64,000 nucleotides of DNA from Rufibacter latericius. Its GTDB lineage: Bacteria; Bacteroidota; Bacteroidia; Cytophagales; Hymenobacteraceae. The translations under genes and the position numbers were made by a program. The notes under the pieces were generated by a model. It made no database searches. It had not been told where the DNA came from and worked only from the letters and a program-made list of their open reading frames with translations. Below, piece by piece: positions 41,634-61,224 of the stretch. The first letter of the stretch is position 1. Each line of letters begins with the position of its first letter. Where the stretch lies: contig NZ_RJJD01000001.1 in NCBI RefSeq assembly GCF_003721515.1, forward strand, positions 620,001-684,000, in the 5' to 3' direction.

Positions 41634-41669
41634 GGGGGTTACGGTTGAAAGCATATAAATAAACTCAAG

Positions 41670-42865: not shown

Positions 42866-45169
42866 CTACTTCTTGCCTAATTCTACAGTTTGTTCGCCGC
42901 CGGCAGCCGATAAAGAGAAAGGTTTGTTCTCTTCTTTGACACCCCGGTTCAAAGCTGGTTTATCGCCCATCACGAAGCTCAAGGTACCGCCGGCGGTGAT
43001 GTCTGCGTGCCGGATATAGTTGTGGTCGTAGGGCTTGCCGTTGAGCGTGGCCGACTGGATGTACACGTTCTGCTTGCTGTTATTCTTGGCCTCGACGGTG
43101 AACTTCTTGCCGTTCTCCAGGGTGATGGTGGCTTTCTGAAACACGGGGCTACCGATGACATATTGGTCAGTGCCGGGACACACGCTGTAGATGCCTAGGG
43201 CGCTCAAAACGTACCAGGAGGACGTCTGGCCTTGGTCTTCATCGCCGGGGTAACCGTTCTCGGTGGAGTTGTACAGGCGGTCCATGACCATGCGCACTTT
43301 CTCCTGCGATTTCCAGGGCTCGCCGCCGTAGTTGTAGAGGTACGGCATGTGCTGGATGGGCTGGTTTCCGTGCGCGTACTGGCCCATGTTGGCCATCACC
43401 ATCTCGGTCATCTCATGGATCATGCGGCCGTAGGAACCTACTTTCACTGTGTTGGGCACGCTGAATACCGAATCTAGTTTGGCCGTGAACCGCTTCTCGC
43501 CGCCCATCAGTTTAATCAGACCTTGGATGTCTTGGAACACTGACCACTGCCAGTGCCAGGCGTTGCCCTCGGTGAACGGTCCGCCCCACTCCACCGGATC
43601 GAAATCGGGCAGCCACTCGCCGTTTTCTTTTCTTCCGCGCATGAATCCGGTGCTGGGGTCATACACGTTTTTGTAGTTGTACATATTCCGGGCGAAGAGC
43701 TGCTCATAGAAGGAGTTGCCCGTGAGTTTGGCCAGTTGGTAGCCGCAGAAATCGTCGTAGGCGTATTCCAAGGTTTTAGCGGTGGCCTCGCCATGGCGGG
43801 GCATGGAAACGTAGCCCAGCGTGTAGTAATCTTTCCAACCTTCGCGGCCGTTAGCTGGCCCCCATGGCCCTTTGTTTGTGGCTTCATGGTAATAAGCATC
43901 TAAGGCGCGTTTCGGATCAAAGGTGCGGATGTTTTTTACCCAGGCATCGGTGAGCAGGGAGATGGCATGGTTCCCAATCATGCTGCCCGCCTCGCCGGGA
44001 AACGACCATGACGGCAGCCAGCCGCACTGGTCTTTGGCATCCAGCAGAGCCACCATGTAGCGCCCATGCATGGTGGGGTGCAGAATAGAATTCAGCGGAA
44101 ACTGTGCCCGGAACGTGTCCCAAAAACCGGTATCGGTGTACATGTAGCCTTCGTGCACTTTGCCGTCATACGGGCTGAAGTAGTACGGCTTGCCGTCTTT
44201 GTCGTATTCAAAAAACTGGCGCGAAAACAGGCTGGCTCGGAAGAAGCAGGAGTAAAAGGTAGCTTTCTCTTCTTCGGTGCCGCCCTCTACCATCACGCGG
44301 CTCAGGTGCTTGTTCCAAACTGCCTCGGCAGCGTCTTTGGTGTCTTCCAGTTTCTTGTGCTTGCCTAACTCTCTGTTTAAGGTGAGTTCGGCCTGCTCCG
44401 GGCTGATGTAAGACGAGGTAACTTTCGCCTGCACTTTTTCCCCGTCTTTGAACTGCACATAGGCGCCAATCCCCTGCCCTTCGCCCGACAAGTTGCCGGC
44501 GGAGATCTTGCCGTCTTTGTTTTCCCAGGTTCCCTGATTGATGAACGGTTTGTCAAAAACGACCACGAAATAACTTTTAAAGTTGTCCTTCAAACCGCGG
44601 CCGTTGTGCACGTAGCCAATGATCTTGCGCTCTTTGGGGATGATCTTTACCATACTCGCACCAGTGTAACCATCCAGCACGATGTAAGAGCCTTCCGTTT
44701 TAGGGAAAGAGAAACGGGCGTGTACGCCGCGCTCGGTCGGCGACATCTCGGTGGTGATGTTGTTGTCTAGCTTTACCTTGTAGTAGTGCGGTTTGGCCAC
44801 TTCATTGGCGTGGCTAAACTTGGTGGCCCTTTTATCTTCGTGCACCTCCAGTTTCCCGATCACCGGCATCAAGGAGAATACCGCGTAGTCATTGGACCAG
44901 GAGCTGCACTGGTGTGCCTGCTGAAATCCTCTGATGGTGTTTTTGGAATATTGGTACTTCCAGCCATCGCCGTTCTGCCCGGTCTGGGGGGTCCAGGTGT
45001 GCATGGCAAACGGCAGCGCGGTGGTGGGATAAGTATTGCCGCGAGTCAGGTCAAACGAAGAGTTGGTTCCCTGCAAGGTATTCACATACTGCACCAGGCT
45101 GGGAGTACCGGCGTAGAGCGAGGCGCTGCAAAGCCAAAGAAAGAGAAAGTAGAGAGGTCTTAGTTTCAT
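42866..45169 (-). CDS. GH92 alpha-mannosidase (copy A)
   Basis: Secreted exo-alpha-mannosidase of 767 residues; signal peptide ends SASLYAG. N-terminal beta-sandwich begins LVQYVNTLQGTNSSFDLTRGNTYP, followed by an (alpha/alpha)6 barrel. Catalytic signatures: Glu534 in PFTEGNAWHWQW (general acid region) and the Asp643-Glu644-Asp645 run in YPGDEDQGQTSSWYV (general base region), numbers one off those of the characterised Bacteroides GH92 enzyme. GH92 members are calcium-dependent inverting alpha-1,2/1,3/1,4-mannosidases that trim mannan side chains. It is 45 percent or so alike by eye to copy B at 47262-49574, suggesting complementary linkages. An operator-like TAAAACGTTTTA lies 127 bases upstream of its start. 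Confidence 0.96.
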   Translation of the reverse strand: MKLRPLYFLFLWLCSASLYAGTPSLVQYVNTLQGTNSSFDLTRGNTYPTTALPFAMHTWTPQTGQNGDGWKYQYSKNTIRGFQQAHQCSSWSNDYAVFSLMPVIGKLEVHEDKRATKFSHANEVAKPHYYKVKLDNNITTEMSPTERGVHARFSFPKTEGSYIVLDGYTGASMVKIIPKERKIIGYVHNGRGLKDNFKSYFVVVFDKPFINQGTWENKDGKISAGNLSGEGQGIGAYVQFKDGEKVQAKVTSSYISPEQAELTLNRELGKHKKLEDTKDAAEAVWNKHLSRVMVEGGTEEEKATFYSCFFRASLFSRQFFEYDKDGKPYYFSPYDGKVHEGYMYTDTGFWDTFRAQFPLNSILHPTMHGRYMVALLDAKDQCGWLPSWSFPGEAGSMIGNHAISLLTDAWVKNIRTFDPKRALDAYYHEATNKGPWGPANGREGWKDYYTLGYVSMPRHGEATAKTLEYAYDDFCGYQLAKLTGNSFYEQLFARNMYNYKNVYDPSTGFMRGRKENGEWLPDFDPVEWGGPFTEGNAWHWQWSVFQDIQGLIKLMGGEKRFTAKLDSVFSVPNTVKVGSYGRMIHEMTEMVMANMGQYAHGNQPIQHMPYLYNYGGEPWKSQEKVRMVMDRLYNSTENGYPGDEDQGQTSSWYVLSALGIYSVCPGTDQYVIGSPVFQKATITLENGKKFTVEAKNNSKQNVYIQSATLNGKPYDHNYIRHADITAGGTLSFVMGDKPALNRGVKEENKPFSLSAAGGEQTVELGKK

Positions 45170-45381: not shown

Positions 45382-46122
45382 TTACAAGGCAGGGTTCAGG
45401 GCGTATTGCTGCCACAGCTCATCCACCGTTTTACCCGTCAGTTTCACCCAAAGCTCGGGGGTATAGGTTTTCTTGCGTAGGGCGGCATCTAAGCTATCCA
45501 CTATTTTGGGGTTCTTGTTCTTTTCTAACCAGGCCAGAAAACGGCCGGTGATGCGGTAACTGTTGGTGTAGTGGTGCTCTGGTTTGAACGGGGTCAGAGA
45601 CCAGCCGCCGCCGGCGTTGTCTACCCCGAATTTGTAGCGCACATAATCGGTAATGCCTTCGGTGAGCCAACCCGGACCGGCGTCATGCGGATAGGCCTGC
45701 ACCAAATGGAATACCTCATGGGTGACCACATCAATATCATTAGGATTCTGCAGCATCCAGAGCGGACTGTACCGAATAATTCCGTCACTGGCTGCCGCTA
45801 CTCCCTGGTAGGCGGGGTCAATGATGAAGGTGACTTTCTTGGTGGTGTTGGGGTTGAAACGGGCCGCTTCTTTCGGGTATACTTTAAAGAAGGCATCAAT
45901 CATCCGCTTTTTGGTTTCCTCGCCCTCCTGCGCAAAGGCTTGATCCCGGTTGTAGAAGAGGAGCGTGTACGGACCTTTGGTGATGGAATCCTTGCTTATG
46001 TAATTCCCAATGTAGGTCCAATCGTCTATACGGTCTTTGTTCTTTTCCTGGTTTGGACCTTGTGCACAGGCACCGGTAATGGAGCCAAGAACAAGCATAG
46101 AACCTATTAGAAATCGTTTCAT
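45382..46122 (-). CDS. Secreted basic-secretory-protein-like metallopeptidase
   Basis: Secreted protein of 246 residues with signal ending GACAQ. It matches the plant and bacterial basic secretory protein family (BSP, peptidase-like PF04450): KKVTFIIDPAYQGVAAASDGII, VVTHEVFHLVQAYP with zinc-binding His135-Glu136 and His139, GPGWLTEGITDYVRYKFG with a further zinc-ligand-type Glu, and SYRITGRFLAWLE. The gluzincin-like HExxH plus downstream GWLTEG supports metalloprotease activity. It lies between GH92 copy A and the ROK kinase in the mannan cluster and could cleave glycoprotein carriers such as yeast mannoproteins. That substrate is inference. The Cys in GACAQ could alternatively make it a lipoprotein. 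Confidence 0.88.
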   Translation of the reverse strand: MKRFLIGSMLVLGSITGACAQGPNQEKNKDRIDDWTYIGNYISKDSITKGPYTLLFYNRDQAFAQEGEETKKRMIDAFFKVYPKEAARFNPNTTKKVTFIIDPAYQGVAAASDGIIRYSPLWMLQNPNDIDVVTHEVFHLVQAYPHDAGPGWLTEGITDYVRYKFGVDNAGGGWSLTPFKPEHHYTNSYRITGRFLAWLEKNKNPKIVDSLDAALRKKTYTPELWVKLTGKTVDELWQQYALNPAL

Positions 46123-46173: not shown

Positions 46174-47082
46174 TTATTTTCTTAAGGTACTCGCGGCTTC
46201 CTCTTTCTCCAACAAACTTCCTTTCCAGGAACTGGCCGCCCCAATCAAAGCCGACTCCTCCCCCAACTCGGCTACCCTTATCGGAATGGATAAGGCATGG
46301 TTTAGAAGATGCTGCTCCAACTCCCCAGAGAACAGATGATAGGCTTTGGAGATGTTGCCCCCGATCACCACCATCACGGCACCCAAGGGTTTCACGGTCG
46401 TTCTGATGAACTCTGCCAGATTTTTCCCAAACTCATCAAAGACAGTTTGCACGGTTAGGTTCTGCGGGGCAAGGTCGGCTAGTTCTCTCACCCCCTTTAC
46501 CTCTTGGCCAGTGAGTTCCCTGAACCGGTTCACGAACCAACGGGTGGAGAGATAGTCCTCGGCGATGCCCTCCTTAAAAGGCGAATTCCACAGGTCGGCG
46601 TCTTCTACCTTGCCGTGGTGGCACCAGGCCGAGCCCAGGCCGGTGCCTAACGTTAGACCCAGTACTTGTTCTACGCCCTGGGCGGCGCCGCAGAAGACCT
46701 CGCCTAACAAGAAACACTCGGCATCGTTCAAAAACCGGATGTCATCTGCCTGCATGGAGAGCTTCTCTGCCAATAATTCCTTTACATTGAGCTTGTAGAG
46801 GATGTCGTATTTGTTCTGGTCCTTGATGAGGGAAACGCCGTTGGGGTAATCAAACGGGCCCGGCATGGCGATGCCGATCTTTCCCGACGAGGTACCATCA
46901 AAGCTCTGGGCTTTTTGGATAACCTCGCACCAGTTGCCGATGATCTCGTTCACCGAGCCCTGGGTGTTTATTTCACTTCTCACATAACTCCCAGATACAA
47001 GAGCGCTCGTTTCCATATCGACAAGGGCTGCGGAAATGTGGGAGCCCCCCACGTCAATGCCAACTACTGTTGCATGTTTCAT
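46174..47082 (-). CDS. ROK-family sugar kinase
   Basis: Cytoplasmic ROK protein of 302 residues. The ATG at 47082 is chosen because it starts just before VVGIDVGGSHISAALVD, the ATP-binding phosphate-1 motif; the longer frame begins with a GTG at 47136. Further motifs are IGIAMPGPFDYPNGVS, FLNDAECFLLGEVFCGAA (catalytic Asp) and LGLTLGTGLGSAWCHHGK. The zinc-binding CxCGxxGCxE motif of most ROK kinases is absent. A sugar kinase for mannose, glucose or fructose is expected; in a mannan locus mannose is the natural substrate. It has no helix-turn-helix, so it is not a ROK regulator. It lies 51 bases upstream of the BSP peptidase gene, same strand. Confidence 0.9.
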   Translation of the reverse strand: MKHATVVGIDVGGSHISAALVDMETSALVSGSYVRSEINTQGSVNEIIGNWCEVIQKAQSFDGTSSGKIGIAMPGPFDYPNGVSLIKDQNKYDILYKLNVKELLAEKLSMQADDIRFLNDAECFLLGEVFCGAAQGVEQVLGLTLGTGLGSAWCHHGKVEDADLWNSPFKEGIAEDYLSTRWFVNRFRELTGQEVKGVRELADLAPQNLTVQTVFDEFGKNLAEFIRTTVKPLGAVMVVIGGNISKAYHLFSGELEQHLLNHALSIPIRVAELGEESALIGAASSWKGSLLEKEEAASTLRK

Positions 47083-47191
47083 AAAACTGCTTTTTTGACC
47101 TGAAGACATGACTCGGTTATAAGTAAACCCACTCACGTTCTTTCTAAGGCTTGTTCCTTCTGCTATATTTTGGTCTGCTTGAGCTACTCTC

Positions 47192-47261: not shown

Positions 47262-49574
47262 TTATTTCGCGTTTTGAGTAACATATTGAGGCTTGGAGAA
47301 CGAGTAAGGGAACGCGCTTTCCTCGTTTCCACGTTTGGTGTTGGGCTTGTCAGCCATATCGAAGCGCAGCTTGGCGCCTTTCATCAGCTCAAAATGGCCC
47401 ACCCAGTTCTTCTCGTGCTTCTTGCCGTTGAGTTTCAGGTCCTGCACGTACAGGTTTTCTTTGCTGTTGTTGGGGGCCTCAATCTCCACTTTCTTGCCGT
47501 TTTCCAATTCTAAGGTCATTTTGGGGAAAAGCGGTGCGCCTAACACATATTGGTCGGTGCCGGGGCATACCGGGTAGAAGCCCATGGCACTGAACACGTA
47601 CCAGGCCGAGGTCTGGCCGTTGTCCTCGTCGCCGCAGTAGCCGTCTGGGGTTGGTTTGTACATGCGGTTCATGGTCTCACGTGCCCAGTACTGGGTTTTC
47701 CAAGGCTCTCCGGCGAAATTGTAGAGGTAGGTCATGTGCTGGATGGGCTGGTTGCCGTGCGCATACTGACCCATGTTAGCGATCTGCATCTCCCGGATCT
47801 CGTGAATTACGCCGCCGTAGTAAGAGTCATCAAACACCGGAGGCAAGGTGAACACCGAATCCAGTTTCTTCACGAAGTTCTGCTTGCCGCCAATCAGGTC
47901 AATCAACCCTTGCACGTCATGGAACACGCTCCAGGAATAGTGCCAGCTGTTGCCCTCGGTGAAGGCATCGCCCCACTTGAATGGGTTGAATGGGGCCTGG
48001 AACTTGCCGTCCTTATTCTTGCCGCGCATCAGGCCAGTGGCCGGGTCATAGAGGTTGCGGTAGTTTTGGCTACGCTTGGCGTACAGGTCAATCTCAGCCT
48101 GTGGTCTCTTCAGGGCCTTGGCTAATTGGTAAATGGCGAAATCGTCATAAGCATACTCCAAGGTGCGGGCGGCGTTCTCGTTGATGTTCACATCATAAGG
48201 CACGTAGCCCAACTTGTTGTAGTAGTCCACCCCTTTCCGGCCAATGGCGGTGATAGGCCCCTCGTTGTTAGCCCCGTGTACCAAGGCTTCGTAGAGCTTC
48301 TCAATGTCGTAACCGCGCAGACCTTTCATGTAGGCATCTGCCACCACTGAGGCCGAGTTGTTCCCGATCATGATGTCAGAATAACCTGGGCTAGACCACT
48401 CGGGCAACCAACCGCCTTCTTTGTAATCGTTGATTAAACCTTCTTGCATCTCTTTGTTGATGGCGGGGTACATGAGGTTCAGGAAAGGATACAAGGCCCG
48501 GAACGTGTCCCAGAAACCAGTTCCGGCAAAACGGTACCCGTCATGGACCTTGCCGGTGTATGGGCTGTAGTGCACCACTTTGTTGGCGGCGTTCAGCTCA
48601 TACATTTTGTGGGGGAAAAATAGCGTGCGGTAGAGGCAAGAATAGAAAGTGCGTTGCTGCTCCTCGGTGCCTCCCTCTACTTTGATGCGGCCCAGCGTAT
48701 TTTCCCAACGGTCACGCGCTTTGGCCATGGTAGCGTCAAAATTGTCTTGGGCCAGTTCGCGGCTCAGGTTCAGCTCGGCCTGCTCTTGGCTGATGAAGGA
48801 AGAAGCGACTTTCAGGTTCACCTTCTCGCCTTTGCTTGTTTTAAACCCAATCACCGCGCCCGAATGGTTAGAGGTCAGCTCCAGGGAATCTCTACCGGTG
48901 AGTTTGTTTCCGCGGAAAGTGCGGGCCAGTACAATGGGTTTGTCTACGTAGATCACGAAGTGGTTCTTGAACTCTTTCAAGGGACCGCGGGCGTACTTGG
49001 TGGTGTACCCCACAATCTTCCGCTCTTTGGGCAACACCTTCACGTAAGAACCTTTGTCTAGCGCATCAATTACAATGAAAGAGCTGTCAGACTTGGGATA
49101 AGTGAACCGAAACTGAGCAGCGCGCTCGGTGGGGGTAAGTTCTGCGGTCACGTCATGGTCTGCGAGGTAAACGCCATAATAGTATGGCTTGGCGGTTTCA
49201 GACTTATGGGAATACCAGCTGGCGCGGCCATCCTGGTCAAACTTCATCTTGCCCGTTACCGGCATGATCACGAACTGGCCGTAGTCGTTCATCCAGGGCG
49301 AGGGCTGGTGCGTCTGCTTGAAGCCCCTGATCTTGTCGGCGGCGTAGGTGTAGGCCCAACCGTTGCCCATGGTGCCGGTTTGCGGGGTCCAGAGGTTCAT
49401 GCCCCAGGGCACAGCCACGGCCGGATAGGTGTTCCCATTGGAGAGTTCCGGTTTGGAGTCGGTGCCCATCAAAGGGTTCACCAAATCCACGGGGGATACG
49501 TCTGCTTTCTTAGAAACCTGGGCGGAAGAGAAGAACGGTACGCTTGCTAGAATCCAAATAAAGAGTTTTTTCAT
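47262..49574 (-). CDS. GH92 alpha-mannosidase (copy B)
   Basis: Secreted alpha-mannosidase of 770 residues; signal peptide MKKLFIWILASVPFFSSAQ. The family layout is as in copy A: an N-terminal beta-sandwich starting PVDLVNPLMGTDSKPELSNGNTYP, then the catalytic barrel with Glu540 in AFTEGNSWHYSW and Asp649-Glu650-Asp651 in YCGDEDNGQTSAWYV. Both general-acid and general-base regions are intact, so it should be active. Sequence differences around the active site (SWHYSW against AWHWQW) suggest distinct linkage or leaving-group preference. It is preceded by TAAAACGTTTTA at 49727, about 150 bases upstream, and stands as its own unit between two hairpins, so it may respond directly to the LacI regulator. 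Confidence 0.96.
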   Translation of the reverse strand: MKKLFIWILASVPFFSSAQVSKKADVSPVDLVNPLMGTDSKPELSNGNTYPAVAVPWGMNLWTPQTGTMGNGWAYTYAADKIRGFKQTHQPSPWMNDYGQFVIMPVTGKMKFDQDGRASWYSHKSETAKPYYYGVYLADHDVTAELTPTERAAQFRFTYPKSDSSFIVIDALDKGSYVKVLPKERKIVGYTTKYARGPLKEFKNHFVIYVDKPIVLARTFRGNKLTGRDSLELTSNHSGAVIGFKTSKGEKVNLKVASSFISQEQAELNLSRELAQDNFDATMAKARDRWENTLGRIKVEGGTEEQQRTFYSCLYRTLFFPHKMYELNAANKVVHYSPYTGKVHDGYRFAGTGFWDTFRALYPFLNLMYPAINKEMQEGLINDYKEGGWLPEWSSPGYSDIMIGNNSASVVADAYMKGLRGYDIEKLYEALVHGANNEGPITAIGRKGVDYYNKLGYVPYDVNINENAARTLEYAYDDFAIYQLAKALKRPQAEIDLYAKRSQNYRNLYDPATGLMRGKNKDGKFQAPFNPFKWGDAFTEGNSWHYSWSVFHDVQGLIDLIGGKQNFVKKLDSVFTLPPVFDDSYYGGVIHEIREMQIANMGQYAHGNQPIQHMTYLYNFAGEPWKTQYWARETMNRMYKPTPDGYCGDEDNGQTSAWYVFSAMGFYPVCPGTDQYVLGAPLFPKMTLELENGKKVEIEAPNNSKENLYVQDLKLNGKKHEKNWVGHFELMKGAKLRFDMADKPNTKRGNEESAFPYSFSKPQYVTQNAK

Positions 49575-49757: not shown

Positions 49758-50678
49758 TTATTGCACGTTCCAGAGCGAAGCCCTTAAACCCAGCTCAAAA
49801 CTTCCTTTCACCCCGGTAAGGCTGTTCAGGGCCGGAGAACCGGTGGTATACATGCCCGTTACCGCCAGTCTTTTTTTCACGTCCACCCCAAAACCGAAGG
49901 TCACGTTCTCTGAGCTGTGGTACATACCGAACACGTTGAACTGGTTGTCCACGAAGGTCAGGTTAGCACCGGCATCAATGAGGTCATCGTACCCTTTCAC
50001 ACCGCGGTACACCACTTTCGGTTCTACGCCTACACTGGAACCAAACGCAAGCTTGTAACTGGCGGCGGCAAAGTAAGTGGACCGGTTCACGGTATTGCGC
50101 TCATTCAGGCTCTTGTCCAGAAAAGCCCTGATATTAGGAAAAGAGCCCTGAATCGTGAGTTTTGAATCAGTATAGGCCACTCCTACTTCCCCTTCAAAAT
50201 AAGGCCCCTGGTCGTTGAATTTAGCAACGGTGTTGTCATCAACATCGCCCACCATTTCATCCATGTCAATCTGCTCATTCACTACCCCGGCAGATAACCC
50301 GAAATGCAACTGGCGGGTACTCTGGTTAAGCGGCAGGTGATAAGAATAGGTGGCCATGGCTCTGGATCTTTTCAGCAGGCCTTCGCGGTTCTGCCCCAGG
50401 TTCAAGCCCAGGCCTACTTTGTTGCTCAGGCCGTAATCAGCGGTGATGGCTTCCGTGGTGGGAGCATCAGAGATGCTCCCCCACTGGTTGCGGTAATGAA
50501 GGTTTACCCTTAACCCTCCGTTCACCCCAGCCATGGCCGGATTAGCCAGGTACTGATTCTGAAAATACATCGCCTTCAACGGATTTATTTGGGCAGCACC
50601 CTCCTGCACCATTGCTACGCAGCAGAAAAGAAGAAAGAAGAAGGACAGCCCTTTTTTTAGGTTATATAGCTTTTTCAT
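49758..50678 (-). CDS. PorP/SprF-family type IX secretion membrane protein
   Basis: Outer-membrane protein of 306 residues from ATG 50678, which opens MKKLYNLKKGLSFFFLLFCC and a signal ending GAAQ; an upstream GTG or ATG would only add unrelated residues. The mature part begins INPLKAMYFQNQYLANPAMAGVNGGLRVNLHYRNQWGSI, the signature of PorP/SprF proteins, followed by alternating beta-strands and closing GSFELGLRASLW. In gliding bacteria SprF is needed for export and anchoring of SprB, a protein with the type-B (CHU_C) sorting domain. Here the gene lies 13 bases after a gene for exactly such a protein, so the two probably form a dedicated export and anchoring pair. Confidence 0.93.
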   Translation of the reverse strand: MKKLYNLKKGLSFFFLLFCCVAMVQEGAAQINPLKAMYFQNQYLANPAMAGVNGGLRVNLHYRNQWGSISDAPTTEAITADYGLSNKVGLGLNLGQNREGLLKRSRAMATYSYHLPLNQSTRQLHFGLSAGVVNEQIDMDEMVGDVDDNTVAKFNDQGPYFEGEVGVAYTDSKLTIQGSFPNIRAFLDKSLNERNTVNRSTYFAAASYKLAFGSSVGVEPKVVYRGVKGYDDLIDAGANLTFVDNQFNVFGMYHSSENVTFGFGVDVKKRLAVTGMYTTGSPALNSLTGVKGSFELGLRASLWNVQ

Positions 50679-50691
50679 ATGGCTTCTATTT

Positions 50692-53600
50692 TTAATCACG
50701 GATAATGGTAAGGGCTCCTTTTGCGGGCGCAATACCTGAACCTAAGTCAATCACATAGTAATACACGCCCTGTGCCAATGGGGAACCTTTGTAAGTACCG
50801 TTCCAGTCATTGGCATAGTTCTCCTTCTCAAACACCACTCTACCGGCTGTGTCAAACACCTTGAGTTTGCTGCCTGGATAAGTGTTGATGTTCCAGATTA
50901 CCCACACATCATTTTTGCCGTCATTGTTAGGGGTAAGGATGTTGTTTGCCTGCAAGGCCACTCCTCCTTCTACCAGCACCGTGAACTCAGCCTCCTTTGT
51001 ACATCCTTCAGCAGTGCTGGCGGTTACCTTGTAGACATATCCCTGGGTTGGTTTGATGGAAAGCACATTGCTGTTCTGGCCACTGATGATGCCTGGTCCG
51101 TTTGCCCAGGTATAAGTGTAGCCTTCTTCGCCTGTCACCGTCAACTGGATGGTCTCCCCTCTAGGCACTTTTCCACCCCGATCAGCGGAGATGCTCATGT
51201 TCAGTTCATAAGAGGTGATCTTGAAGGTTCTGGTGAAGGTGTCGGTGCCGTCGTTCAAAGTCCCTCCATTGTCTTTGGCGGTTATCGTGATCGTCGCATC
51301 ACCGGGTTGGCCTTTTACTAGTTTGTAGGTAAGGACAGCTTTTCCGTTTTCAACGGTGCTCACTGACAAGTCACTGAAGAGTGCGGGCCTGTTGGTGGAA
51401 ACTGATAAGTTAACCTGTTGTCCGGCTTCTGGGCCAGCAGTTATTCCCTCTAAAGGAATGGTATAGGCATCTACCACGTTACAGCTTCTCTGATCTGCGA
51501 TGGCTGCAATAGTTGGCGCCTGGTTTGAACCGCTGGTGACGGCCTCAGCCACCGCAGAATAAGGGGCACTGATTCCTGAAGATTGGCTGTAAGCATTGAA
51601 TGGCCTAATTCTGTAGTAGTAGCGCGTAGCTAGTTTTAGTCCTTCATCTGTATAGCTAGTTACATCAGCTGCTAAAGTTTGGAGCAAGGAGTAAGAGGTA
51701 CCGTTGGTAGACCGCTCAATCTGGAATCCGGTTTCGTTTTCTGCCCGGTCAATCCAGTCTAATTTCACCTGGTTTTCTGACAAGGTAGTGGCTACCAAAT
51801 TCTCAGCAGGCAAAGGCAGCCGTTCATCATAGAGGGTAGTTCCGCTCACCACCGCCGAGAAGATGGTAGCATTGGTCTCTCTCTTTGCCCGCACCTTGTA
51901 AAGGTACGTGGCCAGCACCCCTAGATTTGGATCTGTAAAACTGGTGGCGCCAGCGTCTACCGCTTGCAGCATGGTAAAGGTGGCACCGTCTGTGGAACGC
52001 CATACCTCGTACCCCGTTTCATTCGCCACGTCATTCCAGTTGATGGTGATGGCACTCTCCGTGATGTTGGTTAACCTGATGTTGCTTGGTACTGCTGGCA
52101 TATTCTGTGGAATACCCCAAATCATCAGTTCGGTCATCTGGATGGCATCACTGGAACCATTGTTCACCGTAATATCTAATTTGTAGTACTTGAAAGCGGT
52201 GTTGTTCTCAAAAGAGAAAATCCGATGCTGAAATCTAGAGGTAAAGCGCTGGTTTCTTCTGGTGTCCAGCACTGTCCAATCGGTACCATTGTTTGACCCC
52301 TGGAAAGTCCAATCCTTTGGATCCCGCTCCGGCGCATCATTGGCGGAAACGATGGTGTATTGGGTAACAATATCGGTTGGGGAGGTAGATTCATACTGCA
52401 CCCATAAGGTTCTGTTAGGCGCTTCCAGGAATTTGCTCTCCAAGTTGTTATCAATCAGTTTGGTCGAGTTCTCATTGGGGTTGTTATCGTTATCCTTGGA
52501 AACAGTCAGGGTTCCTCCGTTATCCGTGATATCCGTTAAGGCACCGCTATAATTCAGCGTTGTGATATTCTTCACAGGAGAGAACCCCGAAGGACCGTAA
52601 GCCCCAACTGCTCTTACCCGGTAATAGTAACGAGTAGCCTGTTTTAAGCCTTTGTCATAGTAAGTAGTGGTATTCGCAGCCAAGTCAGCCACCTTAGTAT
52701 AGGTTGTTCCGTCTGTAGACCGTTGCAGTTCAAAGCTGGTTTCTGTGCCAGCATTGTCCACCCAGGTAAGGTACACTTCATCACCACCGGTGGAGAAGCC
52801 GCTTAATGCTGAGGGCGCTAACGGAGGAACTCCTTCAAATAACCGCCACTCTCCCAATTGGAAAGTATCTCCATTTTTAATGGCACTTATGAAGAAGCGG
52901 TAGTATGTATAAGCGGTGGAATTGGTAAGGGTGTAGGTCTTAGTCTGGAAGCGTTCAGAGAACATCTCCCCGGTACGAGTGTCCAGCACGGTCCAATCTG
53001 TTCCGTTGTTTGATCCTTCTATTCTCCAATCCTTCGGGTCACGGTCTGGGGCGTCATTCGCAGAAACCAGCGTGTAGGTACCGGCAATGGCTGGCGCAGT
53101 TAATTGCAACTGTATCCACTGAGATCCCGGGAAGTTAGACAAGAACTTGGTATTAGAATCATTGTCAATCACTTTGGGGGAACCTTCCCCTGCATTTTGC
53201 CCCCCGCTATTTTCTTTGAAAACGGTCAGCACCCCTCCTCTTTCGGTAATATCAGGGGTTGGGGCCGCCTCAAATAAGCGCCATTCCGCCAATTGAAAGG
53301 TATTGTTCGCCTTGATAGCTGAAATATTGAGGCGGTAGTACTTATAAGCAGTAGAGTTGGAAACAGAATAGGTCTGGGTGAGAAACCGCTCTGGAAACAT
53401 CTCTCCGGTACGGGAGTCTAGTTCAACCCAGGTTGTCCCATTGTTAGATCCTTCAAACTTCCAGTCTTTAGGATCACGGTTTGGGTCATCATCTGCCGAA
53501 ACAAGGGTATAGGTCCCCACCACAGCAGGCTCGGTGAGTTCAAACCTTAGCCATTGCATGTTTTCAAAATGGGACAGAAATTTAGTATCTGGGTTATTAT

Positions 53601-53772
53601 CAATCACCTTGGCAGAACCTTCCCGGGAAGTTGGGCCATCATTATTATCAAGGAAAACCGTTAAAACCCCTCCTTTTGCTGTAAGGTCGTCCTGCGCTGA
53701 GGCTTCGTTTATGACGCTGAATACAAACAGCGCACAAAAGGTCACCCTCACAAATTGTAGTAGTTGTTTCAT
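50692..53772 (-). CDS. T9SS type-B surface protein with three discoidin and three fibronectin domains
   Basis: Secreted protein of 1026 residues from ATG 53772; the frame is open 58 codons further into susD, but only this ATG gives a signal peptide (MKQLLQFVRVTFCALFVFSV ... SAQ). Domains in order: discoidin (F5/8C-like) 1 (about 27-167), discoidin 2 (170-315), FN3 (320-405), discoidin 3 (410-555), two FN3 (558-745), a cadherin-like domain (about 745-850), an Ig/PKD-like domain (855-935) and a C-terminal CHU_C sorting domain beginning ANNILTPNNDGKNDVWVIWN. The discoidin domains share the RDPKDW.. EGSNNGT.W motif. It follows susD and precedes a PorP/SprF gene, so it probably replaces SusE/F as surface glycan-binding protein. 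Confidence 0.92.
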   Translation of the reverse strand: MKQLLQFVRVTFCALFVFSVINEASAQDDLTAKGGVLTVFLDNNDGPTSREGSAKVIDNNPDTKFLSHFENMQWLRFELTEPAVVGTYTLVSADDDPNRDPKDWKFEGSNNGTTWVELDSRTGEMFPERFLTQTYSVSNSTAYKYYRLNISAIKANNTFQLAEWRLFEAAPTPDITERGGVLTVFKENSGGQNAGEGSPKVIDNDSNTKFLSNFPGSQWIQLQLTAPAIAGTYTLVSANDAPDRDPKDWRIEGSNNGTDWTVLDTRTGEMFSERFQTKTYTLTNSTAYTYYRFFISAIKNGDTFQLGEWRLFEGVPPLAPSALSGFSTGGDEVYLTWVDNAGTETSFELQRSTDGTTYTKVADLAANTTTYYDKGLKQATRYYYRVRAVGAYGPSGFSPVKNITTLNYSGALTDITDNGGTLTVSKDNDNNPNENSTKLIDNNLESKFLEAPNRTLWVQYESTSPTDIVTQYTIVSANDAPERDPKDWTFQGSNNGTDWTVLDTRRNQRFTSRFQHRIFSFENNTAFKYYKLDITVNNGSSDAIQMTELMIWGIPQNMPAVPSNIRLTNITESAITINWNDVANETGYEVWRSTDGATFTMLQAVDAGATSFTDPNLGVLATYLYKVRAKRETNATIFSAVVSGTTLYDERLPLPAENLVATTLSENQVKLDWIDRAENETGFQIERSTNGTSYSLLQTLAADVTSYTDEGLKLATRYYYRIRPFNAYSQSSGISAPYSAVAEAVTSGSNQAPTIAAIADQRSCNVVDAYTIPLEGITAGPEAGQQVNLSVSTNRPALFSDLSVSTVENGKAVLTYKLVKGQPGDATITITAKDNGGTLNDGTDTFTRTFKITSYELNMSISADRGGKVPRGETIQLTVTGEEGYTYTWANGPGIISGQNSNVLSIKPTQGYVYKVTASTAEGCTKEAEFTVLVEGGVALQANNILTPNNDGKNDVWVIWNINTYPGSKLKVFDTAGRVVFEKENYANDWNGTYKGSPLAQGVYYYVIDLGSGIAPAKGALTIIRD

Positions 53773-53838
53773 ATATGATTTCTTAGGGATATATGGAAAA
53801 TCTGAAGATGCTTTTACAATCCTATTGGTTAGTGCAGT

Positions 53839-53875
53839 GCTAAGTTCAGGTTGGGAAGTCCTTCCTGAACTTAGC
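53839..53875 (-). terminator. Hairpin between susD and the discoidin gene
   Basis: GCTAAGTTCAGG (53839-53850) pairs perfectly with CCTGAACTTAGC (53864-53875). It lies 8 bases past the SusD stop codon and could attenuate transcription into the T9SS genes, setting the stoichiometry below that of SusCD. Confidence 0.82.
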
Positions 53876-53882
53876 CCAATCC

Positions 53883-55706
53883 TTACCAACCCGTATTTTG
53901 CACCAGTAATTTGTTGATGTTCATCTCGCTCTGAGGGATTGGCCACAGGTAATGGCGCTTGGTAAACACCCTGGTTTCAAATGGCACCTTGTTGTAGAAA
54001 TTCTCAATTTGGCGGGCAGAAATATCCAGGGCATAAGTTGGACCGTTGAAAGCTGTTTCAGCAATCTTCCACCTTCTGGCATCAAAATACCGCACATTTT
54101 CAAAGGCCAATTCTACCTGGCGCTCTTTCCTGATGGCTTCTCTTACCGCTTCCTGTCCGGTTGGCGCTTCTAACTCAGCGGAGCCGTATTCAGGGATGCC
54201 TGCCCGGTTTCTGATGAGGTTCACGTAAGTGAGGATATCAGGATGGCCAGGATTATATTCATTCAGTGCTTCGGCATAATTAAGATAGATTTCCGCCAGG
54301 CGCAGCATCACATAAGACCTGCCCCCATTACGCCAGTCACCTGTGCTCATGTTCTTTCTCACAATGTACCCGGTTGGCGTGTAGTCATTACCCGCCCCAG
54401 AGTTTTTGCCTGAGTTACCTTCATACCAGGTTCTAGTGACGATATTGCCGGTATTCTGATTCAACCATAAACTGTTGTCATAAGTGATTCCTACATAGAA
54501 CCGGGGTTCCCTGTTCACCCACTGATTAAAAACCTGTCTTGCTTCAGTATCATTTGGCGCTTTGAAGCTGGTAAACCCAGAAGCCATGTAACCAGATTTT
54601 GGATCATTAATGGATCTTCCGTTTGCAGTAAAATAAGCATCCACAATGTGCTGGGTTGCTCCCAATCCCCCACTTCCTTTGGCTTCGGCTTGTGCGCCGG
54701 CATGGAAGGGTGTCATTTCATACTGTCTAGGATTGATACCTGCATCTATTCTGGCGAAAATGACCTCCTTGTTCCATTCATCAAGGAAAACATCGCGGGT
54801 GGAGAGGTAAGGATCAAACTGGCCCTGAGCATTATTCTTCCGGTACAGATCAAAAGTACCTGGCACAAATTCATCGATAAAGGCCTTTGCTGCATCTGCT
54901 GCTAATTTCCATTTGTTGACATCGTACTGCTGGTTGATCAGTTGTTTTCCGTCTGTGCTCACCAAAGAAGCATAGTCTGAATTACCGTTAAAAAGAGGGC
55001 TGGCCGCAAACAACAAAACCTGTGATTTAATGGCTTGCACATACGGTTTAGTCATACGGCCATATTGATCTGGGTCAGTACCATTTGGCAAGTCTTGGGC
55101 CGCTGCATTGAGTTCTTGGAGTACATAAGCAACACATTCATCATAGGAGCTTCTATGCATCTTCAACTGGTCTGCAGGAGCGTCCACCGGGACAGACTCA
55201 TTTCCTACCAACACAACCGGACCATACAACCGCATCAAATAATAGTAGTACAAGCCTCTTAAAGCCCTGGCTTCAGCTTTATACCGTTTCACGATAGCTC
55301 CATTAGCGCCACAGTCAGTGCATTGGTCTACGTTCTCAATGAACACATTTGCTCTTCTGATTCCCCGGTAGAAATTAGACCAGATAGAATTTACAAAACC
55401 CGAGGTTGGGTCCCATGCCCCGATATTCACCGAGTTACTTCCTACAAAACCCCAAACATATTCTGCCTCGTCAGAGGCCGCCAGCCAGGGACCTACGTTC
55501 CCATCTCCGCCTAATCCTCTTTGACTTACATCATCCGGAATCTGGGAATATACATTTGCCAGATACTGGTCTATGGTGTTCTTATTCTTAAAGGTAGATT
55601 CCAGCGTTAACCGGTCATCTGGTATCTGGTCCAGAAAATCGTCGTTGCATGAGAAGTTCAGGCTTGTAAGCAAGCCTACAAGTATGATTGATTTTATCTT
55701 TTTCAT
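53883..55706 (-). CDS. susD: SusD/RagB-family outer-membrane lipoprotein (mannan locus)
   Basis: Surface glycan-binding lipoprotein of 607 residues. The signal MKKIKSIILVGLLTSLNFSC is followed by NDDFLDQIPDDRLTLESTFKN, the standard SusD opening. The TPR-like core shows RGIRRANVFIENVDQC, AEARALRGLYYYYLMRLYGPVVLV, and the conserved C-terminal RSYVMLRLAEIYLNYAEALNEYN and ERQVELAFENVRYFDARRWK. It ends PIPQSEMNINKLLVQNTGW. It starts 10 bases after SusC and would bind alpha-mannan oligosaccharides and cap the SusC pore. Length is slightly above the common 500-570 residues. Confidence 0.97.
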   Translation of the reverse strand: MKKIKSIILVGLLTSLNFSCNDDFLDQIPDDRLTLESTFKNKNTIDQYLANVYSQIPDDVSQRGLGGDGNVGPWLAASDEAEYVWGFVGSNSVNIGAWDPTSGFVNSIWSNFYRGIRRANVFIENVDQCTDCGANGAIVKRYKAEARALRGLYYYYLMRLYGPVVLVGNESVPVDAPADQLKMHRSSYDECVAYVLQELNAAAQDLPNGTDPDQYGRMTKPYVQAIKSQVLLFAASPLFNGNSDYASLVSTDGKQLINQQYDVNKWKLAADAAKAFIDEFVPGTFDLYRKNNAQGQFDPYLSTRDVFLDEWNKEVIFARIDAGINPRQYEMTPFHAGAQAEAKGSGGLGATQHIVDAYFTANGRSINDPKSGYMASGFTSFKAPNDTEARQVFNQWVNREPRFYVGITYDNSLWLNQNTGNIVTRTWYEGNSGKNSGAGNDYTPTGYIVRKNMSTGDWRNGGRSYVMLRLAEIYLNYAEALNEYNPGHPDILTYVNLIRNRAGIPEYGSAELEAPTGQEAVREAIRKERQVELAFENVRYFDARRWKIAETAFNGPTYALDISARQIENFYNKVPFETRVFTKRHYLWPIPQSEMNINKLLVQNTGW

Positions 55707-55716
55707 TCTTAGGAAA

Positions 55717-58700
55717 TTAGAATTGGAGATTGAAGCCTAAGGAGTAGACTGAAATGTTAGGATATCTTGCCCCGTTTCTGGTAAGCAACTCAGGATCCCA
55801 TAATTTGAAATTACTGAAGGTCAGTAGGTTCACCCCTCTTAGATAAACCCGGGCGTTTCCTACTCCTATTTTTCCGGAAATGGCACTTGGAATGGTGTAC
55901 CCAATCTCGGCAGTTTTCAACCGCAGGAAGTCAATATCTTTCACCCACCAACTGCTAATTTGATTGTTATTATTGCTTCCGTTGGCACCAGATCCGTAAG
56001 ACAATCTTGGGTAAAACGCATTTGGATTTGGGTTCTCTTCCGTCCACCGGTCTAAGGCTATGGTATACAGATTTTCTCCGCCACCATCCCCACTAAAGGG
56101 CCTGATACTTCTTCCTTCCAGTATGATGTCTGCCTCAGCCTGGCCTTGGAAAAAGAAACTGATGTCCAATCCTTTATAACCCAAACTTGTTCCAAATCCG
56201 TAGGTAAGCGCAGGTACATCTCCCTGCCCTATTTGAGAAACGTCATTAGCATCAATTCTGCCATCACCGTTCAAATCTTTGTATCTGATATCACCCGGCT
56301 GGATTTTACCATATTGTGCTGGATATTGGTCTCCATCCTCAGGGGTAATGAAACCGTCTCCATTCACATCGTCCTCAAAGCTGTACAGTCCTTCAGCGGT
56401 CAATCCCCAGTTTGCCAATAAAGGCGTTCCTCTTCTTTCTAACCACGGATAAAGCTGAGCTGGTTGGTCATTTTCTAGGACTTTATTCCGGTTGTAAGAG
56501 AAGGTGCCCCTAAAGCCTATGGAGAAATCTCTTATGTTTTTGTCATACGTGATCGTACCATCAAACCCTTTGTTTTCTGAAATCCCCAGGTTCCCGGATG
56601 GGATGGAAGTAAGCCCAATATAGGCAGGCACATCACCCCTTGTCACAAATGCTCCTACTCTGCGGTCTTTGAATACATCGAAAATGATTCCTAAACTGCT
56701 ATTGAAGGCATTGATTTCAATTCCTATATCTTGCTTTCGAGCTTCTACCCAAGTAACAGCCACTCCATAGGTTTGCTCGATAATGCCGCCATATCCGGCT
56801 CTGTTTCTACCAAACGTGTATCCCCTTATGTTGTCCCCTCTATCATCTTTGTTCCTGACTTCCCCCAAGAAGGCGAACCTACCAGCCCCTGAATCCTGGC
56901 CTACTTTGCCGTCAGTGTATCTCAGTTTTAAGAAGTTGATGGTATTTGACAAGGGTTCAAAGAACTTTTCATTGGAAACCACCCACCCTAAACCAAAGGC
57001 TGGGAAGAAGCCGTACCTTCTGTTTGGGTCAAAATTCTCTGAACCGTTGTATCCAATATTCACTTCCGCGAAGTACCGGTCATCAAAAGAATAGGTAGCC
57101 CTTCCGGCAACTCCTTCGTTCCGGTAAGGAATTGATGCCTGGAAATTACCCGCAAAAGCATCTGATAAATCTGACCGGTTGCCTAGCACCATTCCACTCA
57201 CCCGGTGCTTGCCAAATGCTCTGTCATAATTTAGAGCACCTTCCATGTAAAATCTTCTGTTTCCGCCGTTTGAACGGCCATAGGATAAAAAATTCTGCCC
57301 TGAAAAGGTAGGAGCTGTTCCCAGATTCAGCGTCCCGTCCGGATTTCTTGGGTTGTTAGGATCTACAATCCAAGTGTCTTCCCGCTTGCTTCTTTCAATG
57401 AAGTGCTGGTTAAAAGCATCAAAGGCGAACATGGCAGTAGCAGACAAACCTTCCGTTACTCTATCCAGCTTTTGCGTTATTCTTAAATTAGAGAATAGCT
57501 GGTTCTTGTTCTCGTTCTGATAACCCCTTAGGGCGGCATCTGCATAAGGATTTCTTGATCCGCCATTAGAGCTTCTGCCAGGAACAAAACCGCCCGGGTA
57601 CATAACTGGATATTCTATAGGACTGATTTCCAGCGCCGAACCATAAATATCTGCAGCACTCTCAGCCGGGTAATTACCAGTGGCAATATACCCCTGGATA
57701 CCCAGGTCTACTTTGGTGGATTTAGTAAGGTCCAGCGTTACGTTAGAAGTAACATTGTAACGGGTAAACCTTGTAGTAGCATTGTACTGCGCGATGGCAT
57801 CTGTATTGAACAAACCTGTTTCATCATAATACCCCAGAGACACATAGTACTTTGCCTGAGGAGAACCGCCACTCACGTTTAAATTTGCATTACGGTTGCG
57901 CCCAAAGTTCTCAAATACCTCATCTAGCCAGTTTACATTTGGGTAAACAAACGGGTCTTCGCCACTGGCAGTCTTATTGATTATTTCCTGGCTGTATTTT
58001 GGAAGGGGGCCACTTGTGCCGGGTTCTCTTCTCGTGTATTCTGCCTCATTCGTGAGGTTCATATAATCTACGCCATCTATGAGTTCAGGAACCTTGGTGA
58101 ATCTGGTGATGCCCTGGTTATAATCAAACGTAACTCTGGGTTTCCCTTCCTCGCCTCTTTTGGTCATGATCAAAATCACCCCGTTTGCTCCTCTCACTCC
58201 GTACACGGCGGTGGCGGAGGCATCTTTCAGAATGGTGAAGGATTCCACATCCTGGGGATCAATGTTATTCATGGACCGTTCTACCCCATCTACCAAAACC
58301 AAGGGACCACTTCCCCCGCTCATAGAGGCAATGCCCCTGATCCAGATGTCCGCTCCGTCATAGCCTGGTTGGCCAGAGCGCTGCACACCTGTTACACCGG
58401 CCACCCGGCCGGCTAACATGGTACTGATGTTAGCAACCGGCTGGTCTAACTCTTTCACCGAGACCGACGACTGCGCCCCCACATTGCTTATCTTACGCTG
58501 GGTACCGTAGGCTACTACCACTACCTCATCAACCTTGGTCTGGTCTTCCTGCAAGGTCACATTTAGAGTTGCCTTGCCGTTGATAGGAACTTCCAAAGGC
58601 AGGTACCCAAGGTAAGAGACCACCAACGTGCTATTCCCATCCGGTGCATTCAGGGCATAATTACCGTTCACATCAGTGATAGTGCCCAAAGAGGTGCCCT

Positions 58701-58971
58701 TCACACTAACGGAGGCCCCAATCAATGCTTCGCCCTTGCTATCGGTTACCTTCCCTTTTACCTGGAACTCAAAAGCAGATGAGGCCTTAGTGGCTCGTTT
58801 AGATTTAACAGGCTGGTGAGAGGACTTCTTTGGGGTCTTCTCACCAGCCGCTACCGTAGGCACCGCACTAGTTACAAAACAGAACCCGGCCAGAATTACC
58901 TTGAGCCAAAGCCCTCGGTTCCTCTTTGTGTAACTCCTGAGAAGAAATTTAAGCGGTAAATCTCGTTTCAT
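55717..58971 (-). CDS. susC: SusC/RagA-family TonB-dependent transporter (mannan locus)
   Basis: TonB-dependent outer-membrane importer of 1084 residues. The N-terminus is long and basic (MKRDLPLKFLLRSYTKRNRG) before the hydrophobic LKVILAGFCFVTSAVPTVAA signal segment, then a Lys-rich spacer. Domains: carboxypeptidase-regulatory-like (about 70-150, FQVKGKVTDSKGEALIGASV), TonB-box region VVVVAYGTQRK, plug domain (to about 290, GGSGPLVLVDGVERSMNNID), beta-barrel ending SVYSLGFNLQF. It should import mannan oligosaccharides generated by GH76. It is the first gene of the mannan operon and faces the divergent LacI gene across 1.2 kb holding two palindromes TAAAACGTTTTA-like, presumably its operators. 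Confidence 0.97.
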   Translation of the reverse strand: MKRDLPLKFLLRSYTKRNRGLWLKVILAGFCFVTSAVPTVAAGEKTPKKSSHQPVKSKRATKASSAFEFQVKGKVTDSKGEALIGASVSVKGTSLGTITDVNGNYALNAPDGNSTLVVSYLGYLPLEVPINGKATLNVTLQEDQTKVDEVVVVAYGTQRKISNVGAQSSVSVKELDQPVANISTMLAGRVAGVTGVQRSGQPGYDGADIWIRGIASMSGGSGPLVLVDGVERSMNNIDPQDVESFTILKDASATAVYGVRGANGVILIMTKRGEEGKPRVTFDYNQGITRFTKVPELIDGVDYMNLTNEAEYTRREPGTSGPLPKYSQEIINKTASGEDPFVYPNVNWLDEVFENFGRNRNANLNVSGGSPQAKYYVSLGYYDETGLFNTDAIAQYNATTRFTRYNVTSNVTLDLTKSTKVDLGIQGYIATGNYPAESAADIYGSALEISPIEYPVMYPGGFVPGRSSNGGSRNPYADAALRGYQNENKNQLFSNLRITQKLDRVTEGLSATAMFAFDAFNQHFIERSKREDTWIVDPNNPRNPDGTLNLGTAPTFSGQNFLSYGRSNGGNRRFYMEGALNYDRAFGKHRVSGMVLGNRSDLSDAFAGNFQASIPYRNEGVAGRATYSFDDRYFAEVNIGYNGSENFDPNRRYGFFPAFGLGWVVSNEKFFEPLSNTINFLKLRYTDGKVGQDSGAGRFAFLGEVRNKDDRGDNIRGYTFGRNRAGYGGIIEQTYGVAVTWVEARKQDIGIEINAFNSSLGIIFDVFKDRRVGAFVTRGDVPAYIGLTSIPSGNLGISENKGFDGTITYDKNIRDFSIGFRGTFSYNRNKVLENDQPAQLYPWLERRGTPLLANWGLTAEGLYSFEDDVNGDGFITPEDGDQYPAQYGKIQPGDIRYKDLNGDGRIDANDVSQIGQGDVPALTYGFGTSLGYKGLDISFFFQGQAEADIILEGRSIRPFSGDGGGENLYTIALDRWTEENPNPNAFYPRLSYGSGANGSNNNNQISSWWVKDIDFLRLKTAEIGYTIPSAISGKIGVGNARVYLRGVNLLTFSNFKLWDPELLTRNGARYPNISVYSLGFNLQF

Positions 58972-60201: not shown

Positions 60202-61224
60202 ATGAAAAAAAGGCTCTCCATTAGAGACATCGCGCAACAGCTCAATATTTCTATTACCACGGTTTCTTTTATCCTCAATGGGAAAGCAAAGGAAAAACGC
60301 ATCAGCGAACAGGTAACTGAACGGGTCCTGAAACTGGTGGAGGAGTTAGACTACAAACCCAACCAGATTGCTAGAAGCCTAAGAACCGGAAAATCTAAGA
60401 TTATCTGCCTGATGGTGGAGAATATCTCCAACGAATTCTTCTCCTCCATTGCCCGCCATATTGAAGAAAACGCCTTTGAGCAGGGATATAAAATCATCTA
60501 CTGCAGCACCGAAAACAAGCCGGAGAAAACCCGTGAACTGATCAAGATGTTCCGGGAAAGGAACATTGACGGGTATATCATTTCTCCGCCCGAAGGCATC
60601 AAGGAAGACATCCAATCTTTGCTGGAAGACAAATTGCCCGTAGTGCTCTTTGACCGACTCATCCCTGACCTTCCTACAAACTTTGTGATGATTGATAATT
60701 CCGATGCTACGTACAAGGCCATCCACCATCTAGTGGAACAGGGGCGCCAGAAGATTGCCTTTATTACCCTGGATTCTCGCCAGACCCAAATGAAAGACCG
60801 GCTGGAGGGATATAAAAAAGGCATTAAGGAACAAGACCTGAAACCCTATGTGCTGAAAGTAAACTACACCGACTCCTATGCCCAGCACGTAACCAGCATC
60901 GCTACGTTTCTGAAGAAGCACAAAGAAGTAGACGCCGTTTTGTTTTCAACGAACTACTTAGCCACCCGAGGTATCGAGGCCTTGAACACACTCAACCTGA
61001 AGATACCTTCTGATATAGGCGTCATTGCCTTCGATGACCTGGATTTCTTTAAACTCTATCAACCCACCATTACCGCCATTGCACAACCCGTGGAGGAAAT
61101 GTCAAAGAAGCTGATTGAGATTATCTTAAAGAAACTGGAAGGAGGGCGAGAGGAAAGTGACCAAGAGGAAGTAGTTCTGCCCACTCAATTGATCGTGCGA
61201 AATTCGTCCCTCGCTCAGAAGTAG
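60202..61224 (+). CDS. LacI-family transcriptional regulator (mannan locus)
   Basis: LacI/GalR-type regulator of 340 residues. The helix-turn-helix LSIRDIAQQLNISITTVSFI (residues 4-23) is followed by the hinge NQIARSLRTGKSKIIC and an effector domain with the usual blocks (GYIISPPEGIKEDIQ, VVLFDRLIPDLPTNFVMIDNS, DVIAFDDLDFFKLYQPTITAIAQP in slightly different spelling). It is encoded divergently from the mannan operon and so is its likely local regulator. Palindromes TAAAACGTTTTA before susC and both GH92 genes are candidate operators. It could repress until mannose or a manno-oligosaccharide binds. This is an unusual alternative to the HTCS or ECF control common in such loci. Confidence 0.94.
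   Translation: MKKRLSIRDIAQQLNISITTVSFILNGKAKEKRISEQVTERVLKLVEELDYKPNQIARSLRTGKSKIICLMVENISNEFFSSIARHIEENAFEQGYKIIYCSTENKPEKTRELIKMFRERNIDGYIISPPEGIKEDIQSLLEDKLPVVLFDRLIPDLPTNFVMIDNSDATYKAIHHLVEQGRQKIAFITLDSRQTQMKDRLEGYKKGIKEQDLKPYVLKVNYTDSYAQHVTSIATFLKKHKEVDAVLFSTNYLATRGIEALNTLNLKIPSDIGVIAFDDLDFFKLYQPTITAIAQPVEEMSKKLIEIILKKLEGGREESDQEEVVLPTQLIVRNSSLAQK

Follow-up and report, generated by a model that had tools for sequence, protein, structure and literature searches.

A T9SS type-B CBM32 protein and its predicted partner, a tail-less PorP/SprF-family protein, encoded behind susD in an alpha-mannan locus of Rufibacter latericius

The two outer-membrane systems most characteristic of Bacteroidota, SusCD for import and the T9SS for export, are usually treated apart. 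In Porphyromonas gingivalis, PorP binds PorE. In P. gingivalis, as in Flavobacterium johnsoniae, each type-B substrate of the T9SS is held by a cognate PorP-like protein (PMC9143113, PMC12618676). SprF, which is described as 14-stranded (PMC12611786), is joined to the gliding track (GldK) via two cysteines in its C-terminal tail (PMC12635249). T9SS-tagged proteins are also encoded in a SusCD PUL of Chitinophaga pinensis for chitin and beta-glucan; these are enzymes, unlike the protein described here, and the accessible part of that report mentions no PorP partner (PMC10449523). We found no published account of a type-B CTD/PorP pair inside a SusCD operon, although coverage was thin for subscription papers and priority is not established. 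SusCD, a type-B CBM32 protein and PorP together apparently form an undescribed arrangement of known parts.

We analysed a 64,000-nucleotide stretch of the R. latericius genome (contig NZ_RJJD01000001.1, positions 620,001 to 684,000; hereafter the window). It contains an operon in the order susC, susD, the gene for a 1026-residue protein, porP, GH92, ROK, BSP, GH92, GH76, the gene for a 735-residue protein, a GtaA-like gene, GH43 and GH125 (Table 1). The susC-susD pair, the carbohydrate-active enzymes and a LacI-family regulator that is kept across Rufibacter mark it as a PUL. GH92 and GH125 enzymes are exo-mannosidases and GH76 enzymes are endo-mannanases, so the set of two GH92, one GH76 and one GH125 indicates an alpha-mannan locus. 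The initial annotation had placed a SusD, a CBM32/FN3/CHU_C protein and a PorP/SprF protein 13 nt further on in such a mannan context, and every one of these features was recovered, together with the GH43, ROK and LacI genes. The porP gene starts 13 nt past the stop codon of the 1026-residue gene, and the 110-nt gap between that gene and susD contains a hairpin. The SusD N-terminus (...LNFSC-NDD) is lipobox-like with acidic residues after the Cys. The gene for the T9SS translocon SprA lies at another place in the genome. Several of the distant module copies also contain the BSP peptidase gene, and the 735-residue protein (39447-41654) has a signal peptide and no Pfam match.

Table 1 Features of the mannan locus, in window coordinates
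Feature	Coordinates	Strand	Evidence or remark
LacI-family regulator, divergent, upstream of operon	60202..61224	+	PF00356, PF13377
SusC/RagA TonB-linked outer-membrane transporter	55717..58971	-	TIGR04056, 1012 bits
SusD/RagB lipoprotein	53883..55706	-	PF07980 6.5e-59, PF14322
12-bp perfect RNA hairpin, no U-run	53839..53875	-	Starts 7 nt past susD stop codon
1026-aa T9SS type-B substrate	50692..53772	-	Domain profiles and N-terminus
CBM32 domain 1, residues about 30-168	53269..53685	-	Glu/Asp/Arg mannose-contact residues kept
CBM32 domain 2, residues about 171-312	52837..53262	-	Glu/Asp/Arg kept
CBM32 domain 3, residues about 412-556	52105..52539	-	Top 7NSN GH92 CBM32 match
T9SS type-B C-terminal sorting domain (CHU_C)	50695..50952	-	CHU_C 4.3e-24, residues 941-1022
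PorP/SprF-family barrel protein	49758..50678	-	PF11751 1.6e-48; TIGR03519
GH92 alpha-mannosidase (next after porP)	47262..49574	-	PF07971 6e-183
ROK-family sugar kinase/regulator	46174..47136	-	PF00480
BSP-type peptidase	45382..46122	-	PF04450
GH92 alpha-mannosidase, second copy	42866..45169	-	PF07971
GH76 endo-alpha-mannanase family, lipoprotein-type N-terminus	41670..42791	-	PF03663
GH43 family enzyme	35671..36705	-	PF04616
GH125 alpha-1,6-mannosidase family	34198..35616	-	PF06824

The 1026-residue protein consists of three F5/8 type C (CBM32/discoidin) domains, three fn3 stretches, cadherin/Ig-like domains and the CHU_C CTD. The CTD scored above the type-B cut-offs (CHU_C 84.9 bits, cut-off 27; TIGR04131 59.9, cut-off 35) and is accompanied by a Sec signal peptide. 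Read by eye, the protein starts with a type I signal peptide and has no lipobox, and it is therefore not a surface lipoprotein of the SusE/SusF type. It resembles SusE/SusF and SGBP-B in its slot right behind susD and as a multidomain, predicted surface glycan binder, but differs in that lipoprotein export is replaced by a type I signal peptide plus a T9SS CTD, and in having its own candidate outer-membrane anchor. As had been suggested, the usual SGBP slot of this SusCD locus is occupied by a putative glycan-binding protein of the T9SS type-B kind, which has a PorP of its own.

CBM32 specificity is broad. Assignment of the three domains to CBM32 is based on PF00754/PF22633 and on similarity to the CBM32s of the Neobacillus novalis GH92 alpha-1,2-mannosidase NnGH92 (PDB 7NSN; E 7e-40 for the whole protein). 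In 7NSN, mannoimidazole is contacted by Glu105, Asp148 and Arg152 (PMC10167667), and equivalents of all three residues are present in each of the three window domains and in nearly all domains of distant copies. Phe122, a further ligand contact that stacks in 7NSN, is not kept in the window domains. The CBM32 is appended to a GH92 enzyme in N. novalis, whereas here it occurs in three copies with no recognised catalytic domain, and CBM32 deletions in NnGH92 barely changed its mannan affinity (PMC10167667). The conserved contact residues support mannose binding by the window domains, and with it the glycan-capture role first proposed for them, but fall short of proof.

The window PorP belongs to the PorP/SprF family (TIGR03519 167.3 bits, cut-off 90.55; PF11751 166 bits; 14 strands in the AF2 model of the L059 copy). 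It shares with SprB-SprF an adjacent type-B substrate and a 14-stranded barrel, as modelled here. In contrast to SprF, which has a periplasmic tail with twin cysteines, its C-terminal tail is only eight residues long (RASLWNVQ) and has no Cys; moreover, this pair sits in a SusCD operon and the substrate is a CBM32/FN3 protein. In the PorP tree, the window protein falls inside a clade of 97 rows (SH-aLRT 100). None of the 97 has a tail cysteine or the end motif [CST]P..[WFY]; outside the clade, the motif is present in 15 of 30 and a tail cysteine in 6. The clade was sampled by similarity to the window PorP, so the 23 of 97 located beside SusCD are not an unbiased frequency. Another 69 pair with CHU_C proteins away from SusCD, which shows that the CHU_C/PorP pair is not intrinsically part of a PUL.

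The initial annotation had envisaged a dedicated SprF that anchors the exported protein. Its own adjacent PorP and the type-B/PorP pairing established in the literature fit this proposal, but the resemblance to SprF does not extend to the tail, its cysteines or a PorE neighbour. No PorE/OmpA-like gene lies beside the window porP, which is flanked by the GH92 and CHU_C genes. Two other PorPs of the genome (contig C6) have TPRYF tails and PorE-like OmpA genes directly after them. Compared with PG1035-PorP-PorE of P. gingivalis, the window system shares a type-B substrate that is predicted to be held by PorP but differs in lacking both the PorE neighbour and the tail. Taken together, these sequence features make tethering to the track (GldK) or to PorE unlikely, although an absent tail does not prove an absent tether. 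They also bear on a gliding-type mobile adhesin, with PorP acting as SprF does to link the CBM32 protein with the moving track. SprB/SprF is a pair from the same family and the genome has GldK-family genes, but SprF needs its twin tail cysteines to bond GldK (PMC12635249), which the window PorP and its clade do not have, and no GldJ was detected above cut-off in the genome. We consider such an adhesin highly improbable.

A single AF2 chain was modelled from the Ig domain, CTD, linker and PorP of the closely related L059 copy, in which the stop was read as a residue purely as a modelling device. The model has a 14-strand barrel whose last strand ends three residues before the C-terminus (pLDDT 85.9). 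Its pTM of 0.76 exceeds what the barrel alone would be expected to give and is a weak hint that the CTD packs against the PorP barrel. A PDB fold search returned general porins, FadL and OmpG and, lower down, chain 8gl6_F of a T9SS RemA-CTD complex; this confirmed the barrel without any more specific match. At the sequence level, nothing PorP/SprF-like turned up in the PDB.

The CTD differs in parallel with its partner. Most other type-B CTDs in the genome have a central N-R-W-G motif, which is common but not known as defining. The window CTD has F-D-T-A-G-R-V-V at this position, unlike the SprB-type N-R-W-G, and still exceeds the type-B profile cut-off. Among CTDs that partner the tail-less PorP clade, D-x-[AST]-G-R replaces N-R-W-G, and the Trp is present in 0 of 93, compared with 17 of 24 outside the clade. 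As this split follows one clade, we count it as a single evolutionary event rather than many. Within the genome, no other CTD exceeds 43% identity to the window CTD and no other PorP exceeds 26% identity to the window PorP, whereas the CTDs for which crosstalk was reported in F. johnsoniae share 68%; the window CTD and PorP are therefore probably a private pair. The co-occurrence of D-x-[AST]-G-R CTDs with tail-less PorPs in the 97-row clade is a possible specificity code, and the motif split offers testable specificity residues.

The order susC-susD-CBM32/CHU_C-porP is present in at least 12 other genomes from two orders and is not specific to this strain. Close PorP relatives led to the identical order in Rufibacter sediminis, R. 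hautae, R. roseus and Rufibacter SYSU D00344. Two more families of Cytophagales share it (L048, with susC off the contig, and L049), as do six Chitinophagaceae (L084 and L123 from Niastella and Paraflavitalea, and L187-L190). Two further Chitinophagaceae, L191 and L192, have the CBM32/CHU_C-porP pair in a susC locus with no SusD detected. Outside Rufibacter the CBM32 protein is about 44-47% identical to the window protein. It was found in 11 of 296 genomes in a family-level search of Chitinophagaceae, and a phylum-wide search with the CBM32 alignment at a strict threshold returned the source genome alone, which indicates that the protein is rare.

The recurrence of the order makes it more than a chance arrangement. 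A CHU_C/porP pair could have been inserted behind susD and hitch-hiked there, functionally unlinked to it, as type-B/PorP pairs are numerous and eight are adjacent in this genome. Against this, the order is held at about 45% protein identity over two orders, and none of the ten other PorPs in the genome (seven of them beside a CHU_C gene) is near SusCD. In addition, PorPs that carry the label PUL_disc cluster on the PorP tree, with 4 changes compared with 14.4 in shuffled labels. Hitch-hiking is thus largely excluded.

Behind porP there is usually a gene for a lipoprotein with a HEIGH motif, together with GH92 or BSP genes. The lipoprotein (about 315 residues, with the HEIGH motif metallopeptidase-like) follows porP in eight loci (L048, L049, L084, L123 and L187-L190), has no Pfam match and gave a poor fold prediction (pLDDT 43.5). 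The Rufibacter loci are without it but have the BSP peptidase and a third CBM32. No glycoside hydrolase gene was recognised in the partially annotated flanks of L084, L123 and L187. In L194, the CBM32/FN3 unit and a HEIGH domain are fused in one protein, which has a T9SS tail of type A. Proteins similar to this fusion were seen in L195.

The CBM32 protein might instead be an adhesin for mannan-coated cells or surfaces, such as yeast and other fungi, that is co-regulated with the PUL and acts outside glycan capture by SusCD. The type-B substrates that have been characterised are established or putative adhesins (PMC12618676), the CHU_C partners of most PorPs in the clade are large and lie away from SusCD, and the CBM32/FN3 architecture would suit this role. 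It accounts less well for an order kept directly behind susD over two orders, and for a length that varies little (876-1057 residues in most SusCD copies) compared with free pairs (174-3332 residues). The L194 fusion to a peptidase-like domain also points to substrate processing, and we regard the adhesin as rather unlikely. The type-A version in L194, which is potentially released, suggests another alternative, a soluble mannan-binding scaffold secreted into the medium or on vesicles with PorP as a merely transient shuttle. This we judge improbable, as type-B CTDs stay surface-bound to PorP-like proteins in the two species studied (PMC9143113, PMC12618676).

From the gene content and its order over two orders, the conserved domains and residues, the tail-less PorP clade and the matched CTD motif, we infer a surface mannan-binding protein that is exported by the T9SS and held by its private tail-less PorP beside SusCD (probability about 0.6). 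The locus would be an alpha-mannan or mannoprotein utilisation system with an extra SGBP built via the T9SS rather than the lipoprotein route. The CBM32/FN3 protein would cross the inner membrane via its type I signal peptide, be carried through the SprA translocon by the type-B CTD, and be passed to the co-encoded PorP, which would remain bound and hold it at the cell surface. There, the CBM32s could bind mannose-containing glycans beside SusCD and the surface GH76, GH92 and peptidase activities, and their capture may raise local substrate for SusCD import. Since its PorP lacks a periplasmic tail, the complex probably has no link to peptidoglycan or the gliding track and would be free to move within the outer membrane.

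The conserved pairing of SusCD with the T9SS in one operon suggests a second route to surface glycan-capture proteins in soil lineages. One CTD and one tail-less PorP form a small, defined pair for asking how type-B substrates anchor without track or PorE, and the mannose-contact CBM32s and the tail-less PorP class make the proposal testable. More tentatively, tail-less PorPs with D-x-[AST]-G-R CTDs might be a distinct T9SS shuttle/anchor class whose cargo stays untethered in the outer membrane, recruited in PULs to place T9SS-exported glycan binders into SusCD assemblies (a T9SS-built utilisome); we see this as a doubtful but possible extension. R. ruber, R. roseus, Nubsella and Pedobacter have a second PUL type, with GH2, GH10 and GH3, in which a different FN3/CHU_C protein is accompanied by a PorP of the tail-less clade. 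Such GH2/GH10(/GH3) PULs with an FN3/CHU_C protein and a tail-less-clade PorP were noted in L045, L046, L126, L130 and L135, and L114 and L160 have the order CHU_C-PorP-susC-susD with GH76/GH92.

The hairpin behind susD, to which the initial annotation had assigned a possible role in setting the dosage of the downstream gene below SusCD, is real (0 matches expected by chance) and conserved in five Rufibacter species. Its stem is paired at 12 of 12 positions in these species, with one two-sided change, and is mostly invariant, which limits the power of the shuffle control. At this site L048 and L049 have other hairpins (z -4.9 and -3.3), and none is found there in L084 or L123. We rejected an intrinsic terminator, since the hairpin has no U-run and is absent from the terminator hits. 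A link special to the SusD/type-B pairing was also rejected, since a strong hairpin lies just past the stop codon in 18 of the 30 susD genes of the genome. The hairpin more probably serves susCD mRNA in a general way, through 3'-end stability or partial read-through, than as a device for this locus alone. Among the susD 3' hairpins of the genome (L196-L225), some have a U-run and some lie directly before another gene.

Another PUL in the window (701-25539) encodes SusC, a hybrid two-component regulator, DUF2264 and DUF4861 proteins and a GH127 protein with LamG, as well as a 1584-residue protein with a type-A T9SS tail. L076 (contig PBYL01000366), titled as a Thalassovita sp. MAG, is a Bacteroidota SusD/T9SS locus, and the bin is likely misnamed.
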